Below, one piece after another: positions 17,458 through 23,897 of a stretch of 32,933 nucleotides of DNA (the stretch's first letter is position 1; each line of letters starts with the position of its first letter). The stretch spans positions 1 through 32,933 of the forward strand of contig WQYD01000015.1 of NCBI GenBank assembly GCA_009781445.1. Reading direction: 5' to 3'. The DNA is from Bacillota bacterium (lineage in GTDB: Bacteria; Bacillota; Clostridia; Christensenellales; DTU072). The notes beneath the pieces were generated by a model that did not search any database, had not been told where the DNA came from, and saw only the letters and a program-made list of their open reading frames with translations. The translations under genes and the position numbers were made by a program.

Positions 17458-18609
17458 ATGAAAAAGAACAAATTTATGAATAAGGGGACAGCCCTTTTCG
17501 GCGCAATTGCAATGGTTATGATTGCTGTTGTGTCTATCGTGGGCGTAACCTTTGCATGGTTCAGTGCATCACCAGATCCCAGAGTAACGGGAATTAGGGC
17601 AGAAGTTGCAGGCGCGGAAACCTTACAGATTTCGCACCTCGGAACAGACGGCACTTTCTCAAGAATTCTAACTTGGACAAGTATCAGCACAAATCCTCAT
17701 GCGCAAGCAAACCTTCCCGCGAAACTTACCTCTGTAACACCCCAAGCAAACAGAACCACTGGCGAAGTTGAACTTGGTTTAAACAACAGGTTACAATTTT
17801 ATGGGGACGGCATGGAATTCTGCCCCGATTTGTTTGAAGATTGGTTTGTAGCAAACGAAACAACAAGAGACACTGTTCTTGGCGAAACCTTTGCAACTTA
17901 CGATTTAGCAATAGACAAAGCAATGGAAATGGGTATCATATATTCTGGCTTACCTTCCACATGGGCAAACCACCCTGCGTTTAATTGGTACAAGTACAAA
18001 GGCGGAGTTCTTTCTTACGCAACAACCCCTGGTACAGGAGACGGCGGTTGGTACTTCTTCCCCTTGTTCTTCAGGGCATCAAGTGACACCGATATTTATA
18101 TTGCACTTCCCACTGCTGACGGCGGACACGACAACACTTTTGCAGATTCAAGAGAAAATGGTACGATTGCAAGGCAAATAATTTCGCAATCCGTTCGTTT
18201 CGCGTTCGTACATAATGGCGAAACGGTTGTTTACAAACCTCAACCCGAAATTGTTGGCGGAACTAATGCGGGAGCGGCGGCAAACCTTACTGGCGACTTG
18301 CTTGATACAAGAGGTGGCGGAAATATCGTTCCTAACATTTATAACGCACACACTTGGGCAAGCGTAGCTGGCACTATTCCTTCCACTGATATTGTGAAAG
18401 GCGGTCCCGAAGTGAGTGGCGCAAACTTACTTAAGATTGGAACAACGGACGCATTTGACGATTCAACCACAGCACTTGCTGAAGAAACCACCACAAGGAT
18501 TGATATCTACATTTGGGTAGACGGCAACGATATCTACAACACCAACTTTGCCGCAAACAGCAACTTCATAGCGCAACTTCAATTCTACGGAATCGCTAAA
18601 ATAGCGTAA
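17458..18609 (+). CDS. Major TasA-like fibre subunit candidate
   Basis: 383 aa from ATG 17458. The frame opens at 17443 inside the Shine-Dalgarno (GGAGG at 17445-17449, 8 nt spacing), so the later ATG is used. The SipW-type signal reads ALFGAIAMVMIAVVSIVGVT then FAWFSASPDP. The mature protein is Ser/Thr/Asn/Gly-rich and ends with a TasA-like terminal strand pattern (IDIYIWVDGNDIYNTNF ... FIAQLQFYGI). It has one Cys. It is larger than typical TasA (about 260 aa). Strong promoter, strong ribosome site and position directly before sipW suggest this is the abundant exported subunit. Fibre formation is inferred from the family; an S-layer-like role is an alternative. Confidence 0.7.
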   Translation: MKKNKFMNKGTALFGAIAMVMIAVVSIVGVTFAWFSASPDPRVTGIRAEVAGAETLQISHLGTDGTFSRILTWTSISTNPHAQANLPAKLTSVTPQANRTTGEVELGLNNRLQFYGDGMEFCPDLFEDWFVANETTRDTVLGETFATYDLAIDKAMEMGIIYSGLPSTWANHPAFNWYKYKGGVLSYATTPGTGDGGWYFFPLFFRASSDTDIYIALPTADGGHDNTFADSRENGTIARQIISQSVRFAFVHNGETVVYKPQPEIVGGTNAGAAANLTGDLLDTRGGGNIVPNIYNAHTWASVAGTIPSTDIVKGGPEVSGANLLKIGTTDAFDDSTTALAEETTTRIDIYIWVDGNDIYNTNFAANSNFIAQLQFYGIAKIA

Positions 18610-18644
18610 AGAACCAAAAGTAAACAAAAGTGTGTAAATAATTA

Positions 18645-18673
18645 TTGACACTTACGCACACACATGTTATTAT
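18645..18673 (+). promoter_or_regulatory. Promoter of sipW
   Basis: Consensus TTGACA (18645-18650), 17-bp spacer, TATTAT (18668-18673). sipW thus appears to have a promoter separate from the fibre gene. Confidence 0.75.
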
Positions 18674-18698
18674 TAAACAACTTAAATATGAAAGCTTT

Positions 18699-18722
18699 AA
18701 GCACGATGCTTGCATCGTGCTT
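18699..18722 (+). other. Hairpin in the sipW leader
   Basis: Perfect 10-bp stem AAGCACGATG / CATCGTGCTT with loop CTTG, extendable with one mismatch by AGCT ends. It lies between the sipW promoter and its ribosome site (AAGGGGGG) and has no T-run, so a leader role or mRNA stability element fits better than a terminator. Confidence 0.55.
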
Positions 18723-18747
18723 TAGCTAACAACACAAAGGGGGGCAA

Positions 18748-19830
18748 ATGTCCAAATTTACTATCACAAAAAAGCAGGTGAAATTGATACTTGATATCGT
18801 TTCTTATGTGGCAATAGCATGCATTGTTTTGCTTGCAGTTCTATCCTTAATGCTTTCGGTAACCACTAAGAGGGAATCCGAACTTCCAAGGCTATTCGGT
18901 TCTACCGTTATGCTTGTGGAATCTGACTCAATGAAGGGTAGCAAGTCCGATAACTTCAAAAAAGGCGATCTTGTTAAAGTGGAAGTTTTATCCTCTAATG
19001 CAGACAAAGCAAAGCTAAAAGTCGGCGATATTATAACTTTTAAGTTTGACAGGGCAGGTAACCTTGACGGCGGGCAAGAGTTTAACACTCACAGAATTCA
19101 TAGCTTGATTTTAAACGAAGACGGCGAGGTTTACGGCTTTAAAACCAAAGGTGATAATAACACCGCCGTGGACGCAGACAGCGTTTATTTTCCCGATATC
19201 GTAGGCAAATATAACGGACACCTTTCGGGGCTTGGCGCGTTTATGGGCTTTTTGAAATCCACAGCAGGGTTTATTGTTCTTATTATTCTTCCCCTTGTGC
19301 TGTTTGCAGGCTACAGGGTTTATATCTTGGTTAAAATTATCCTTGACATTAAGAAAGAAAAGAATAAAGATAAGCAACCTTTATCCGAAGAAGATCAGCT
19401 TAAACTCTTAAAGGAATTAGAGGAATTAAAGGCAAAAGTGGCAGGCACGGCAAAAGAAGAAGCTGTGGAAGAAATCGCGGAAGTTCCCGCTGAGGTTATA
19501 ACCCAAGCCGAACCCGTAGCAGTGGCTACAGAAGAGGTTGCCATTCCCGCAGAAACCATTACTGAGGCAGAAGTAGCAGAAGAAATTGCAATCGTAGCAG
19601 AACCAGTGGCAGAAGCGGAAGTGGCGGAAGTAAAAGCCCCCAAAGCCACTGCAAAACCCGCTAACCCAAAAGCAACCGCGCCCAAAGCTACCACAGCTAA
19701 AACCGCAACCGCAAAGCCTGCAACTGCAAAAGCAACCGCCCCCAAAGCTACCACGGCAAAACCTGCCTCGGCTAAAGCCACACCCAAAGCAACAGCCCCC
19801 AAAGCAAAAGCAACGGACAAAAACGCTTAA
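18748..19830 (+). CDS. sipW: SipW-type signal peptidase I with long Lys/Ala/Pro-rich tail
   Basis: 360 aa. TM1 is at about 12-38. The catalytic Ser61 is in VESDSMKG, His115 in THRI (in place of the Lys of ordinary bacterial type I peptidases) and Asp136 in TKGDNN, so this is the Ser/His ER-type enzyme. TM2 is at about 167-192. By family it cleaves the signals of TasA/camelysin-type proteins on the outer face of the membrane. It is about twice usual length: after TM2 a Glu/Ala-rich coiled segment is followed by a low-complexity tail of PKATAPKATTAK-type repeats, predicted cytoplasmic. The ATG has the ribosome site AAGGGGGG. Five probable substrates are encoded nearby. Confidence 0.92.
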   Translation: MSKFTITKKQVKLILDIVSYVAIACIVLLAVLSLMLSVTTKRESELPRLFGSTVMLVESDSMKGSKSDNFKKGDLVKVEVLSSNADKAKLKVGDIITFKFDRAGNLDGGQEFNTHRIHSLILNEDGEVYGFKTKGDNNTAVDADSVYFPDIVGKYNGHLSGLGAFMGFLKSTAGFIVLIILPLVLFAGYRVYILVKIILDIKKEKNKDKQPLSEEDQLKLLKELEELKAKVAGTAKEEAVEEIAEVPAEVITQAEPVAVATEEVAIPAETITEAEVAEEIAIVAEPVAEAEVAEVKAPKATAKPANPKATAPKATTAKTATAKPATAKATAPKATTAKPASAKATPKATAPKAKATDKNA

Positions 19831-19851
19831 GGGAAACAAACCGAGTAAAAG

Positions 19852-19888
19852 ACCTCTTGCGGAATAACCCTTGCGCAAGAGGTTTTTT
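19852..19888 (+). terminator. Intrinsic terminator after sipW
   Basis: Stem ACCTCTTGCG / CGCAAGAGGT, 12-nt loop, then TTTTTT. It ends only 8 bp before the ATG of the next gene, so that gene needs read-through or a start signal inside the terminator. Confidence 0.85.
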
Positions 19889-19896
19889 AGATTAAT

Positions 19897-21399
19897 ATGG
19901 ATGTCTTTTTAAAATTTTTCTATGAAGTCATGTATGTACTCCTTGAGAAGCTGGGGGACTTTTTTGGCGGACTTTGGCGGAATTTTTGGGCGATTTTCAG
20001 CATTAGAGATTATAACGGAATCCTTTCCTTATATAAAGACGACTTCAACGGTTGGGCTTGGTTTTTCACAATTGTGTTCTTAATTCTTCTTGTGGGCTTT
20101 ATCGGGCTTATAGGATTTATGATTGTTTTGCTTGTGAAAAAGTACATAAGGGTAAGGAAAAAGTTTGTGGAACAGGAAGAAATGGTTCTGCAAATTGATG
20201 ATCTTAATAAAAAAGTGGTAAAGCTGATTCGTGAAAAGGATTACCTTATGGCACTCAAGGTTTCCCAACTTGGGCTAAAGCCGGGGGACGATGTGGGTAA
20301 CGGCGAAGTGGCAGGCGAGAAAGACGAACGCTTTGTTAAACTTATCAGCGTGGATCAGCAGTACGCAGAGGGAATGTATGTTACCGAACACCCGCAGGAT
20401 TTCACCCTTGAACAGCTTGTGAACGATTTAAGGAATTACGCGTGTAAAGAACTTAAACTTTTTTACACCCACCGCATAATAGGGCTTTTTGTGGCAGGGC
20501 TTGCCACCTCTAAAATCATAATCCTTGAAGGTATCAGCGGAACTGGTAAAACCAGCTTGCCGTATGCCGTGGGCAAATTCTTCGCGTTTGACACACCTAT
20601 CGTGCCTGTGCAACCCTCATGGCGTGATAAAGCGGAACTTGTGGGATATCTTAACGAATTTACCCGCCGTTTTAATGAAACAGACTTCTTGAAAAATGTG
20701 TACGAATGCAAATATCGTGAAACGGTAAGCCTAATTGTTCTTGACGAAATGAACTTGGCGCGTATTGAATATTACTTTGCAGAAGTTCTTTCAATGCTTG
20801 AACTTCCCAATACCGCTGAATGGCTTCTTGATGTTGTGCCTGATAATTGGGCAAGCGATCCTAAACTTCTCACAGGGGGCAAAATCCCTTTCCCCACCAA
20901 TGTTTGGTTTGTGGGAACTGCAAATAATGACGACTCTACTTTCACAATAACCGATAAGGTTTATGATCGTGCTACCGCTATCCCCATTAACACAAAGGGC
21001 GTTGCGTTTGAACCGGGTGAGTATAAGAGGTACGACATTAAGGAAACATACCTAAAGCAACTTTTTGTGGAAGCTAAGGAAAAATACATAATTCCCGAAG
21101 GGCTTTTTGCAAGAATCGCACAGCTTGATAACTTCGTGCTTGAAACCTTCCGCATTACATTCGGTAACCGTATTTTAAAGCAAATGAAGGATTTCTTGCC
21201 TGTGTTCGCCGCTTGTGGCGGTGATATGATAGACGGCTTGGATTTCTTCCTAACCACAAAAATATTCAGAAAGTTCGGCAGTTTAAACACTTCGCACGAA
21301 CAAGAGAACCTGCAAAAGCTGATTCTTGTGCTAACCGCCATATTTGGCGAAAAAAATATGCAAGAATCTAAAGAATTCATTCAGAGAATGATAAGATAG
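19897..21399 (+). CDS. Membrane-anchored McrB-like AAA+ ATPase
   Basis: 500 aa. A hydrophobic N-terminal region with a clear membrane segment at about 54-82 is followed by a basic, coiled-coil-like stretch (83-125) and an AAA+ domain. Walker A is GISGTGKTS at 212-220. Walker B, VLDEMNLARIEYYFAEVLSM, starts at 281 and is the McrB-family signature. The sensor region is TANNDDSTF at 341-349. Unlike McrB of restriction systems, there is no N-terminal DNA-binding domain but a membrane anchor instead. No Shine-Dalgarno is visible, and the start follows the sipW terminator by 8 bp. The EAL-like and DUF2357 genes downstream probably supply its partners. Whether it uses GTP or ATP cannot be told. Confidence 0.85.
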   Translation: MDVFLKFFYEVMYVLLEKLGDFFGGLWRNFWAIFSIRDYNGILSLYKDDFNGWAWFFTIVFLILLVGFIGLIGFMIVLLVKKYIRVRKKFVEQEEMVLQIDDLNKKVVKLIREKDYLMALKVSQLGLKPGDDVGNGEVAGEKDERFVKLISVDQQYAEGMYVTEHPQDFTLEQLVNDLRNYACKELKLFYTHRIIGLFVAGLATSKIIILEGISGTGKTSLPYAVGKFFAFDTPIVPVQPSWRDKAELVGYLNEFTRRFNETDFLKNVYECKYRETVSLIVLDEMNLARIEYYFAEVLSMLELPNTAEWLLDVVPDNWASDPKLLTGGKIPFPTNVWFVGTANNDDSTFTITDKVYDRATAIPINTKGVAFEPGEYKRYDIKETYLKQLFVEAKEKYIIPEGLFARIAQLDNFVLETFRITFGNRILKQMKDFLPVFAACGGDMIDGLDFFLTTKIFRKFGSLNTSHEQENLQKLILVLTAIFGEKNMQESKEFIQRMIR

Positions 21400-21410
21400 G
21401 TGATATAATA

Positions 21411-21540
21411 ATGCACGAGTGCATAATTCAGAATTCAGAATTATGAATTCAGAATTAAGGATTTCAAATATAATTAATAAAATTCCACAATTCTGCATTC
21501 TGCATTCTGAATTCTTAATTAGAAAATGCGGAACGCATTA
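21411..21540. repeat. Heptamer-array element 11 with bordering palindromes
   Basis: ATGCACGAGTGCAT (21411-21424), AATTCAG/AATTATG units, a degenerate core (GGATTTCAAATATAATTAAT ... TTCC), TTCTGCA/TTCTGAA units, then AATGCG-GAA-CGCATT (21525-21539). Each side is thus closed by a small palindrome. Confidence 0.8.
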
Positions 21541-21558
21541 TAGATAAGAGGTTAAAAC

Positions 21559-22701
21559 ATGGACGGACTTCCCGATTTAGTAGATTTAAATAGCTTAATG
21601 CAATCGCCAAAGGTTGCTGATTCTCAACCTGCGCCAAAAACCGCAGGCTTTGCAGGTATGCCTGCGCTTGATCCGCTTCCGCCCCTTGGCGGTACTTCGG
21701 CAGGTTTGCCACCCCTTAGCAGTGCGCCGTTAGGCAGTGCTTCTTTGGGCTTAGCCTCTAAGGGTGCGTCTGTGATTGCGCCTGTTCCCGTAAAGCCACC
21801 AAGAAAGCGCAAAGCAGTGGCAGAGGGCGCACCCGCAAAGCCCGCCACACCTAAGAAAGCACCCGCTAAGCCTGCCACCCCCAAAGTTGCCGTGGAAAAG
21901 CCCGCACCTGCCCCGCCTGCAAAACCTCAAGGAAAGCAAGCAGGATATGAAAAGGTTGCCACCCCCAAAAAAGCACCCGAAAAAATGCAAGTTCCCGAAG
22001 TGGAAGTTTTTGATCCTGCCGTAGCGTACAAGGCTATTGATTGGAAAAGCGCAGGGCTTTGGCGCAGGGCGGCGAAAGATACCGTGGCAGATAAGAACTT
22101 CTTATTTGATTACAGGCTTTCTTTGAAGAATAAAAAAGGCGTGCTTATCACGCAGGAAGATATTTCCCGAATGGCGGCAGTGCTACCTGAATTCCAAATT
22201 AAATTTGATAAACTTCTTATTGAAAAGGTTTTAAGCATTGCCTCGGCGCAAACCGTGCCACTTTGCGTTAAAATTTCCACAGGATATTTCCAAAGTGCGG
22301 AATTTGTGCGTGATTTTGTGGGAATGTTTGCCGATGCGGATTTCCCTCAAAATGTGTTTTTTGAGATTAATGACGATGCTTTTATCTATCACGAAAGAAA
22401 CAGCAAAACTTTTGAAATATTTAAAAAACTTGGCATAAAACTTGCGGTTAAGAACTTTGGCTATAATATTTTTGAGTACGGAAAGATTCCTGATTTTGAA
22501 ATAAGCGTGCTTAAAATCGGTTCTGAATTGGTTAAAAATTTCAGCAAAGATGTCCGTGCGCGTTCGGTGGTTCACCACATTTTCTCTTACGCAAAAATCA
22601 TGAAAGCCGAAGTGGTTGCTTACGGAATTGATACCGTGGCAGACGAATCAAAGTTTAAAGCACTCGGTTGCTATAAAATACAAGGGCTTGTAGAGAACTA
22701 A
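21559..22701 (+). CDS. Degenerate EAL-domain protein with Pro/Ala/Lys-rich N-terminus
   Basis: 380 aa. Residues 1-150 are low complexity, with KAPAKPATPK-type repeats. Residues about 155-380 align by eye with an EAL (c-di-GMP phosphodiesterase) fold: FFEIND (267-272) in place of LEITE, KNFG (298-301) for DDFG, LKIG (318-321) for LKID, AYGID (354-358) for AEGVE and LGCYKIQG (369-376) for LGCDxxQG. The EAL triplet and most metal ligands are missing, so it is expected to be catalytically dead and may bind a nucleotide or protein. Ribosome site AAGAGG precedes the ATG. Its stop overlaps the next ATG by 1 bp, indicating coupling with the DUF2357 protein. Confidence 0.75.
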   Translation: MDGLPDLVDLNSLMQSPKVADSQPAPKTAGFAGMPALDPLPPLGGTSAGLPPLSSAPLGSASLGLASKGASVIAPVPVKPPRKRKAVAEGAPAKPATPKKAPAKPATPKVAVEKPAPAPPAKPQGKQAGYEKVATPKKAPEKMQVPEVEVFDPAVAYKAIDWKSAGLWRRAAKDTVADKNFLFDYRLSLKNKKGVLITQEDISRMAAVLPEFQIKFDKLLIEKVLSIASAQTVPLCVKISTGYFQSAEFVRDFVGMFADADFPQNVFFEINDDAFIYHERNSKTFEIFKKLGIKLAVKNFGYNIFEYGKIPDFEISVLKIGSELVKNFSKDVRARSVVHHIFSYAKIMKAEVVAYGIDTVADESKFKALGCYKIQGLVEN

Positions 22702-23897
22702 TGAACGATAAGCAGATTGCAGAATTTTACGAAGCTTTTAAGAAGCGTGTTTTCGGCACTCTTAGTTCGGATATTTTTTATGCAAGTTTTTTAAACTCTT
22801 TGCAGGGCGGAAAGCGCAAATTTACCACGCAAAACATATTTATTGATCGTGAGGTAGACGAAACTTGGGTTCGCGCTATTGAGCTTGCAATCCCCCACAT
22901 GAGCCAAATTATCAATAATCCGCGCCAATTTCTTAAAACTGAAGAAGATGTTGTCGCGGTGGAACTCGCGCGGAAAATCACCGTTAAATCAATCCGCCAC
23001 CTTTCGGTAAATTCCCACCTTATCAGAAATATTGAGGATAAAAAGGTTACGCCCTCTAAAATTCTTACCTTTCATAACGAAGATACCCTTGATCTTTATG
23101 AAAACCGCTTTGTTATGACACTTCTCTTAAAAGTTACGGATTTCGTGGAAATGCGTTACTTAAAACTTACTTCGGATGCACGCGGTAAGAAATCCGAGAT
23201 AGCGTTTAAGGGTGAATTTGATAGGAATAATGAAAAAACCAAATATAGCCTGCAAGTGAAAACTGAGGACGGCGGATACACCGCCGAAAGCGGTAACGCC
23301 AATATGAAGCGCATTGAAAAAATCCGCGAATATCTTTTGGGGTTTAAAAGAACCAAGTTTTACAAGGATTTGAAAGGGCTTCCAAGCATTAAAATGCCCG
23401 TAAACAAAACCAATCTTTTATTAAAATCCCCCGACTATTTTGCTTGCCTCGGGCTTTGGAACTTCCTTGATGTTTATAGAAAACCGGGGTACAGCATTAA
23501 ACTTTACGATAATAACACCGCGCCCGAAGGCAAAATCAAAGAGGCGGAATGCCTTGTGTTTTTTGCTTACGCCATGCTTAAAGAAGTGCTTGCAGGTAAG
23601 GACGCACCGAATGAAAACGATATTGAACGCCAAAGAACGGTAGAACCCACCATTGTGCGCAAAAGCATTACGGATTTTGTGGAACACTTTGATGTGGGCG
23701 TGCCGATAAACGAACTCAACCACGAGGATATTATGGCAGGAATGCTTAAAGCATTCCACAGTGGCGCACCCGCGGAAGCCGAGTATACCAAACTTGCCCC
23801 CACCGTGCATTGGGAAGAATTTAGCGAAACAGAACCCCCCGAAAAGCAAGACGCCACAACCGTTAAAGCGAATGACGGGTTTGAGGTGTTTGAATAA
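22701..23897 (+). CDS. DUF2357/McrC-like protein apparently lacking a nuclease domain
   Basis: 398 aa. The segment ILTFHNEDTLDLYENRFVMT, with ENRF at 134-137, and the later KTNLLLKSPDYFACLGLWNF are typical of DUF2357 proteins, which are related to the N-terminal part of McrC and are encoded next to McrB-like ATPases. No PD-(D/E)XK motif (D...ExK with suitable spacing) was recognised in the C-terminal half, which ends in an acidic, probably flexible tail. It overlaps the EAL-like gene by 1 bp. The likely role is as partner or activator of the membrane ATPase at 19897. Family assignment is by motif only. Confidence 0.65.
   Translation: MNDKQIAEFYEAFKKRVFGTLSSDIFYASFLNSLQGGKRKFTTQNIFIDREVDETWVRAIELAIPHMSQIINNPRQFLKTEEDVVAVELARKITVKSIRHLSVNSHLIRNIEDKKVTPSKILTFHNEDTLDLYENRFVMTLLLKVTDFVEMRYLKLTSDARGKKSEIAFKGEFDRNNEKTKYSLQVKTEDGGYTAESGNANMKRIEKIREYLLGFKRTKFYKDLKGLPSIKMPVNKTNLLLKSPDYFACLGLWNFLDVYRKPGYSIKLYDNNTAPEGKIKEAECLVFFAYAMLKEVLAGKDAPNENDIERQRTVEPTIVRKSITDFVEHFDVGVPINELNHEDIMAGMLKAFHSGAPAEAEYTKLAPTVHWEEFSETEPPEKQDATTVKANDGFEVFE

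Follow-up and report, generated by a model that had tools for sequence, protein, structure and literature searches.

A CoCoPALM-type cassette in a clostridial genome: a candidate membrane platform for the processing and assembly of SipW-dependent surface filaments

Introduction

McrB-type motors are known for the restriction of foreign DNA. What such a motor might be doing beside a signal peptidase is the question raised by contig WQYD01000015.1 of the Bacillota bacterium assembly GCA_009781445.1, analysed here as one window of 32,933 nucleotides (the whole stretch), which makes up one contig (G000:C15) of a draft genome of 1.89 Mb and 93% completeness. Five genes on the + strand, lying between a DUF4143 gene and mfd, encode a candidate filament subunit, a SipW-type signal peptidase, a McrB-like nucleoside triphosphatase (NTPase), a degenerate EAL protein and a DUF2357 protein. 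Judged from the sequence, and with a probability of roughly 0.6, the locus is a CoCoPALM-type cassette encoding an NTP-driven membrane platform for the processing and assembly, or anchoring, of surface filaments. CoCoPALM was named in one paragraph of a 2024 eLife paper that announced a fuller account; the class is described there as an N-x-D McrB GTPase with a transmembrane (TM)/coiled-coil region, together with a signal peptidase (PMC11090510). The five genes are as follows.

17458 to 18609, + strand: secreted protein of 383 residues with a SipW-type signal (GVTFAWFS), candidate filament subunit; TM-like stretch at residues 6-39; member of a family with a T[YF]AWF signal
18748 to 19830, + strand: SipW-type (S-H-D, ER/archaeal-type) signal peptidase; TM segments at residues 9-42 and 161-201; long Ala/Lys/Thr/Pro-rich C-terminal tail; TIGR02228 and NF046067
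19897 to 21399, + strand: membrane-anchored McrB-like AAA+ NTPase; TM segment at about residues 49-86, helix to residue 124, NTPase domain at about 170-500, N-x-D-D signature
21559 to 22701, + strand: degenerate EAL-domain protein (PF00563); Pro/Ala/Lys-rich N-terminus (residues 1 to about 150), probably disordered; no TM segment
22701 to 23897, + strand: DUF2357 (McrC N-terminal-like) protein (PF09823) with no recognised nuclease; 1-bp overlap with the EAL stop codon

All five open reading frames are present, and the descriptions given in an earlier note on this DNA are correct, save that the secreted protein had been labelled 'TasA-like'. A second copy of the cassette, also tied to sipW, occurs in the same genome.

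Results

The ATPase and DUF2357 genes are linked to a SipW-type signal peptidase

Conservation of the neighbourhood was examined in two samplings, one of relatives of the window's own genome and one of named genomes. The ATPase was the sole criterion for choosing loci, so that none of the neighbours had been selected for. The ATPase was found in 21 of 58 genomes in the first sampling, including the second copy in the own genome. The second returned at least 586 relatives, the closest of them from gut and rumen Clostridia and Bacilli, and the best 80 were kept for the neighbourhood counts; these include the cultured species Ruminococcus albus, R. flavefaciens and Eubacterium ruminantium. In total 106 ATPases from 105 loci were counted, with denominators that vary with the sequence available.

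A DUF2357 gene starts within 400 bases downstream of the ATPase in 100 of 104 cases, and a homologue of the SipW-type signal peptidase lies in 99 of 106 neighbourhoods. In 74/94 cases the sipW homologue ends no more than 1 kb upstream; on the downstream side, 68/85 have sipW, as a separate gene or as a fusion, within 4.5 kb of the ATPase. Both samplings display the same order, sipW-ATPase-DUF2357, often continued by a second sipW. The earlier note had raised the possibility that the ATPase, EAL and DUF2357 genes usually occur away from sipW; the ATPase/DUF2357 pair usually lies beside it.

Comparison of 34 genomes of the family points in the same direction. A SipW-type peptidase scoring above cut-off was found in 16/16 genomes with the cassette vs 3/18 without it (P = 4.5e-7) and an EAL domain in 16/16 vs 2/18 (Fisher P = 7e-8), values that are a guide and are not exact, as loci and genomes are related and the P values overstate their independence. 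In most genomes without the cassette, the general signal peptidase gave just weak matches to TIGR02228. The distribution of the cassette is scattered, and within genera g4 and g8 the cassette, the EAL gene and the SipW-type peptidase are present or absent together. The association of ATPase, DUF2357 and SipW-type peptidase is not due to chance.

The DUF2357 partner has no recognised nuclease and is fused to a peptidase in part of the family

The DUF2357 protein of the window matches PF09823 above cut-off (2e-8) and no other family. Indeed, neither a nuclease nor any other Pfam family was found in the 18 aligned DUF2357 proteins, the window protein included, in agreement with the absence of a nuclease motif reported in the earlier note, and PADLOC gave no match for any DUF2357 homologue. 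Long, charged, coiled-coil-like tails are carried by DUF2357 relatives; the tail of the window protein is short, and the C-terminal ∼100 residues are of low confidence in its structural model.

In 16 loci of the Ruminococcus type, the second signal peptidase and the DUF2357 domain are joined in a single protein, with DUF2357 at residues ∼10-320 and the peptidase at ∼745-1015. The R. albus KH2T6 fusion contains TM-like stretches at residues 771-801 and 908-938, both in the peptidase part. If these domains adopt their usual topology, DUF2357 would lie in the cytoplasm and the active site of the peptidase on the outer side of the membrane. No other single observation argues as strongly as the fusion for joint action of the McrC-like partner and the peptidase.

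The McrB-like NTPase carries a predicted membrane anchor

The N-terminus of the NTPase contains a hydrophobic stretch (residues 49-86) inside a single long predicted helix (residues 52-124), and it is likely that this part tethers the ring domain to the membrane. No DNA-binding Pfam domain was found in 22 homologues, in keeping with the earlier note, which saw a membrane anchor in place of a DNA-binding domain. Walker A (G-x-S-G-x-G-K-T), Walker B (LDE), the N-x-D-D signature and several arginines are kept in all 22. Within the signature N343, D345 and D346 are invariant, with the qualification that the ungapped HMMER alignment also permits N-x-x-D. Pfam AAA_5 is matched by 10 of the 22 homologues and misses the window protein.

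A profile of the 22 homologues gave McrB as its sole significant match in the PDB (E = 4.6e-7). The AlphaFold model of the NTPase (pLDDT, the predicted local distance difference test score, of 81) supports an AAA+ fold in general, and a fold search with it returned generic AAA+ matches at low TM-scores, with Thermococcus gammatolerans McrB at rank 21; for the McrB relationship the sequence profile is the better evidence. A weak NCBIfam match to FtsL (E = 0.061) falls short of showing FtsB homology. A sample across the phylum yielded almost exclusively other McrB-like NTPases, which scored 155 bits at most and matched mostly in the NTPase domain alone; with the own genome excluded there was one full-length relative, from a bacterium of the same taxonomic class. 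The PADLOC candidate-defence model PDC-M26A matches the window NTPase at 1.8e-38, and automatic defence annotation may accordingly mislabel cassettes of this kind.

The EAL protein is degenerate and belongs to the system

The window EAL protein matches PF00563 (2.9e-21) from profile position 38. At its catalytic sites the residues of the EAL, DDFG and EGVE motifs are replaced by D, KN and Y, respectively, whereas the glutamate of ExTE and the lysine of IKID are retained; as far as sequence can tell, the protein thus lacks the full catalytic set of an active EAL phosphodiesterase, as the earlier note had proposed. The overlap with DUF2357 described there is likewise real: the EAL stop codon TAA (22699-22701) shares a base with the DUF2357 start codon in TAATG.

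All six catalytic residues are kept in none of 38 short EAL proteins vs 14 of 29 longer ones. The same replacements recur in the short proteins (Gln for the EAL Glu in 32/38, Met for the IKID Lys in 27/38, Asp for the EGVE Glu in 30/38, and Tyr for the NVSP Asn in 28/38), although many of the 38 come from Ruminococcus relatives and are not independent. This consistency suggests that the short EAL proteins are likely to be under selection for a new role and are not decaying.

Elsewhere, 46 of 72 loci have an EAL gene no more than 6 kb upstream of the ATPase and in the same orientation; in none of the 72 does one lie on the opposite strand. Only two EAL domains occur in the own genome (C15:22126 and C7:10177), each near one of its two cassettes. 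Together with the co-occurrence across family genomes, this places the degenerate EAL protein within the system. Two other accounts of its position in the window were considered and rejected: a chance insertion, suggested by the lack of an EAL gene between ATPase and DUF2357 in other loci, because an EAL gene regularly accompanies the cassette at another position; and a split single gene, because EAL and DUF2357 are fused in no relative examined.

No GGDEF match was found in seven genomes that carry both cassette and EAL (G005, G009, G012, G018, G020, G024 and G049), an absence that could reflect incompleteness in a single draft genome and less likely does so in seven. A general role for the dead EAL in reading cyclic di-GMP (c-di-GMP) is thus unlikely; individual members may differ. 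The own genome encodes three GGDEF domains and only degenerate EAL domains, and with no catalytically intact EAL found there, c-di-GMP breakdown would need another enzyme.

The signal peptidase and its candidate substrate

The signal peptidase scores 65 bits against TIGR02228, above cut-off. It matches the SipW model NF046067 at 7.5e-24, yet under that model's cut-off of 190 bits. Its sequence contains the Ser (VESDSM), His (THRI) and GDNN motifs. In several loci the SipW protein ends in a long C-terminal tail rich in Lys/Ala/Thr/Pro (window:19400-19830, L031:8142-10019, L035:6405-8165, L038:7124-8764); the tailed relatives are 546-625 residues long, and the tails resemble the N-terminus of the window EAL protein, which is rich in Pro/Ala/Lys.

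The 383-residue secreted protein carries a SipW-type signal, and its gene is followed by sipW. It is matched by 23 open reading frames of related loci (E ≤ 1e-3). The T[YF]AWF signal is common to the related proteins, as is a short VYIWxEGQD-like motif at the C-terminal end. Proteins with SipW-type signals also flank many of the related cassettes.

Other genes of the window and of related loci

Accessory genes for a YhcG PDDEXK nuclease (DUF1016), a Fic protein and a DUF4143 ATPase occupy window:11942-17157, between gyrBA and the cassette, and are possibly an exchangeable island. In cassettes of the Bacilli type, a conserved protein of ∼350 residues is encoded directly upstream of the ATPase (L063:6947-7996 and 10 further loci). 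Its L063 member has no Pfam match, a comparison of the family with EAL by hhalign (E 0.024, probability 2%) is a weak hint of a distant relationship with EAL, and at L110:6049-8001 a family member is fused to the C-terminus of a signal peptidase (73 bits). In many loci a gene for a single-TM protein of ∼231-243 residues (for example L058:6510-7238 and L055:5471-6163) separates EAL from sipW or from the fibre gene; no Pfam or NCBIfam match was found for this protein where tested. At L044, two ATPases flank one DUF2357 protein.

Discussion

The organization of the cassette suggests how its parts could work together. The NTPase would form a membrane-anchored ring at the cytoplasmic face, activated by its nuclease-free DUF2357 partner; both the ring form and the mode of activation are modelled on McrBC. 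This switch would sit under the membrane beside the SipW-type peptidase, which would cut SipW-type signals on the outside and free the exported subunits. The platform could then tie NTP hydrolysis to ordered processing, hand-over, assembly or anchoring of the subunits as surface filaments. The degenerate EAL protein may act as a structural or adaptor subunit and would not be a phosphodiesterase. The AAA+-driven membrane platform proposed in the earlier note is partly supported by the sipW linkage and the EAL membership; its role in export or assembly, and a kinship of the fibre with TasA, we can still only infer.

Several observations weigh against this model, in addition to the relatedness of the sampled loci and genomes. 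There is no match to PF12389 (Peptidase_M73/TasA/camelysin) across the genome, where a Bacillus subtilis control genome was positive, and a profile of 15 related secreted proteins had no match in the PDB and thus none to a solved filament. The TasA homology is not borne out by these data, and it is the SipW-type signal (FAWFS) that argues for a fibre. The structural model of the DUF2357 protein is poor (pLDDT 60) and has no meaningful fold match, so no McrC fold is claimed from structure. Among the loci examined, the order ATPase-EAL-DUF2357 is peculiar to the window. Finally, divergent membrane ATPase/DUF2357 pairs with TM segments occur without sipW (L044, L045 and L046), and for this reason the basic job of the motor may be broader than the sipW-linked one.

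Such distant pairs would suit a machine for membrane quality control, in which the NTPase and DUF2357 pull cleaved signal peptides or stalled preproteins out of the membrane and filaments form only incidentally. Pulling of polypeptides is common among AAA+ rings, and the pairs at L044 and L045 have TM segments and no sipW; however, the tie is to a specialised SipW-type peptidase and its likely substrates, and not to the general signal peptidase, which makes this reading very unlikely. A membrane-located type IV-like anti-phage system that senses invading nucleic acid, with the peptidase or secreted proteins as effectors, would accord with the McrB ancestry of the NTPase, its PDC-M26A match, the adjoining YhcG, Fic and DUF4143 genes and the scattered distribution. 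It accords poorly with DUF2357 proteins that lack a recognised nuclease, have no PADLOC match and can be fused to a signal peptidase, with two copies in one genome that are both tied to sipW, and with SipW-signal substrates inside the cassette, and we regard it as quite improbable.

Regulated release, as in the LapD system, would make the degenerate EAL protein a c-di-GMP receptor that switches the peptidase through the NTPase/DUF2357 pair and the membrane, and so controls the shedding or display of surface proteins. Some degenerate EAL domains do act as c-di-GMP receptors (LapD, FimX), the peptidase and EAL genes lie together, and three GGDEF domains exist in the own genome. The LapD model matches the window EAL weakly (4.5e-8, under cut-off), as do models of active EAL domains. 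Set against this are the seven cassette genomes with EAL and no GGDEF match, and the replacement of conserved active-site positions (the NVSP Asn and the Lys now Met) in most of the short EAL proteins. On balance regulated release seems unlikely.

For the filament platform, a more far-reaching formulation is offered only tentatively, at somewhat less than even odds: a McrB/McrC-derived motor domesticated for filament export and assembly in Gram-positive bacteria, with DUF2357 joined to the peptidase in part of the family and an EAL pseudo-enzyme acting independently of c-di-GMP. A McrB core in which no nuclease or DNA-binding parts were found, with a membrane anchor and linked, in part by fusion, to a protease that should act on the outer side of the membrane, suggests the recruitment of a defence motor to build or anchor cell-surface filaments. 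If this is correct, SipW-dependent surface filaments would have an energy-driven route of assembly, whereas in Bacillus strand exchange between subunits is considered sufficient; it would explain many of the SipW-type signals of rumen and gut Clostridia; and it would show that selection can maintain an EAL domain that has no general c-di-GMP role. The cassette is testable now, given its occurrence in the three cultured species named above.

Comparison with known systems

Like LapD and its protease LapG, the cassette ties a catalytically dead EAL domain to a protease acting on surface proteins. It differs from LapD and FimX in that the window EAL protein has no TM segment, its relatives are mostly EAL-only, the active-site positions are altered, and the protein is present in genomes without detected GGDEF domains.

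The Bacillus tapA-sipW-tasA and sipW-calY operons share with the window a SipW-type peptidase beside substrates bearing a SipW-type signal. To our knowledge, these operons contain no AAA+ NTPase, DUF2357 or EAL gene, and we know of no motor like the McrB-type NTPase in Bacillus TasA assembly. The window secreted protein has the SipW-type signal and the linked sipW, but neither the Peptidase_M73/TasA domain nor subunit homology to TasA was found. Bacillus TasA, once processed by SipW, is assembled through donor-strand exchange (PMC9674648, PMC10151520); the content of the operons is described in PMC10151520.

The likeness to McrBC type IV restriction lies in a McrB-like AAA+ NTPase with a DUF2357 partner encoded downstream, and in McrBC the McrB ring is stimulated by a DUF2357 stalk, as summarised in PMC11090510. 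In contrast, no modified-DNA-binding domain on the NTPase and no PD-(D/E)xK nuclease fused to DUF2357 was recognised in the cassette, whose NTPase instead carries a membrane anchor and is linked with a signal peptidase.

We know of no member of the CoCoPALM class that has been tested, and no later account of the class was found in the literature searched. The window has most features of the class as it is outlined in that one paragraph: the N-x-D signature (often followed by D or E), a TM-like stretch and long predicted helix where the class has an FtsB-like N-terminal TM segment and coiled coil, a DUF2357 protein, and a linked gene of the signal peptidase family, here as in nearly all neighbourhoods counted. 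It differs in that its DUF2357 protein lacks the long coiled-coil tail that is usual for the class and is seen in relatives, and in that the EAL gene splits the ATPase/DUF2357 pair. The earlier note did not recognise the system as described; the general class had in fact been named, whereas SipW, EAL and c-di-GMP do not occur in the main text of PMC11090510, and no DUF2357-peptidase fusion was seen in its passages on CoCoPALM. Overall, the conserved dead EAL protein, the identity of the peptidase as SipW and the substrates with SipW-type signals are new relative to that main text.

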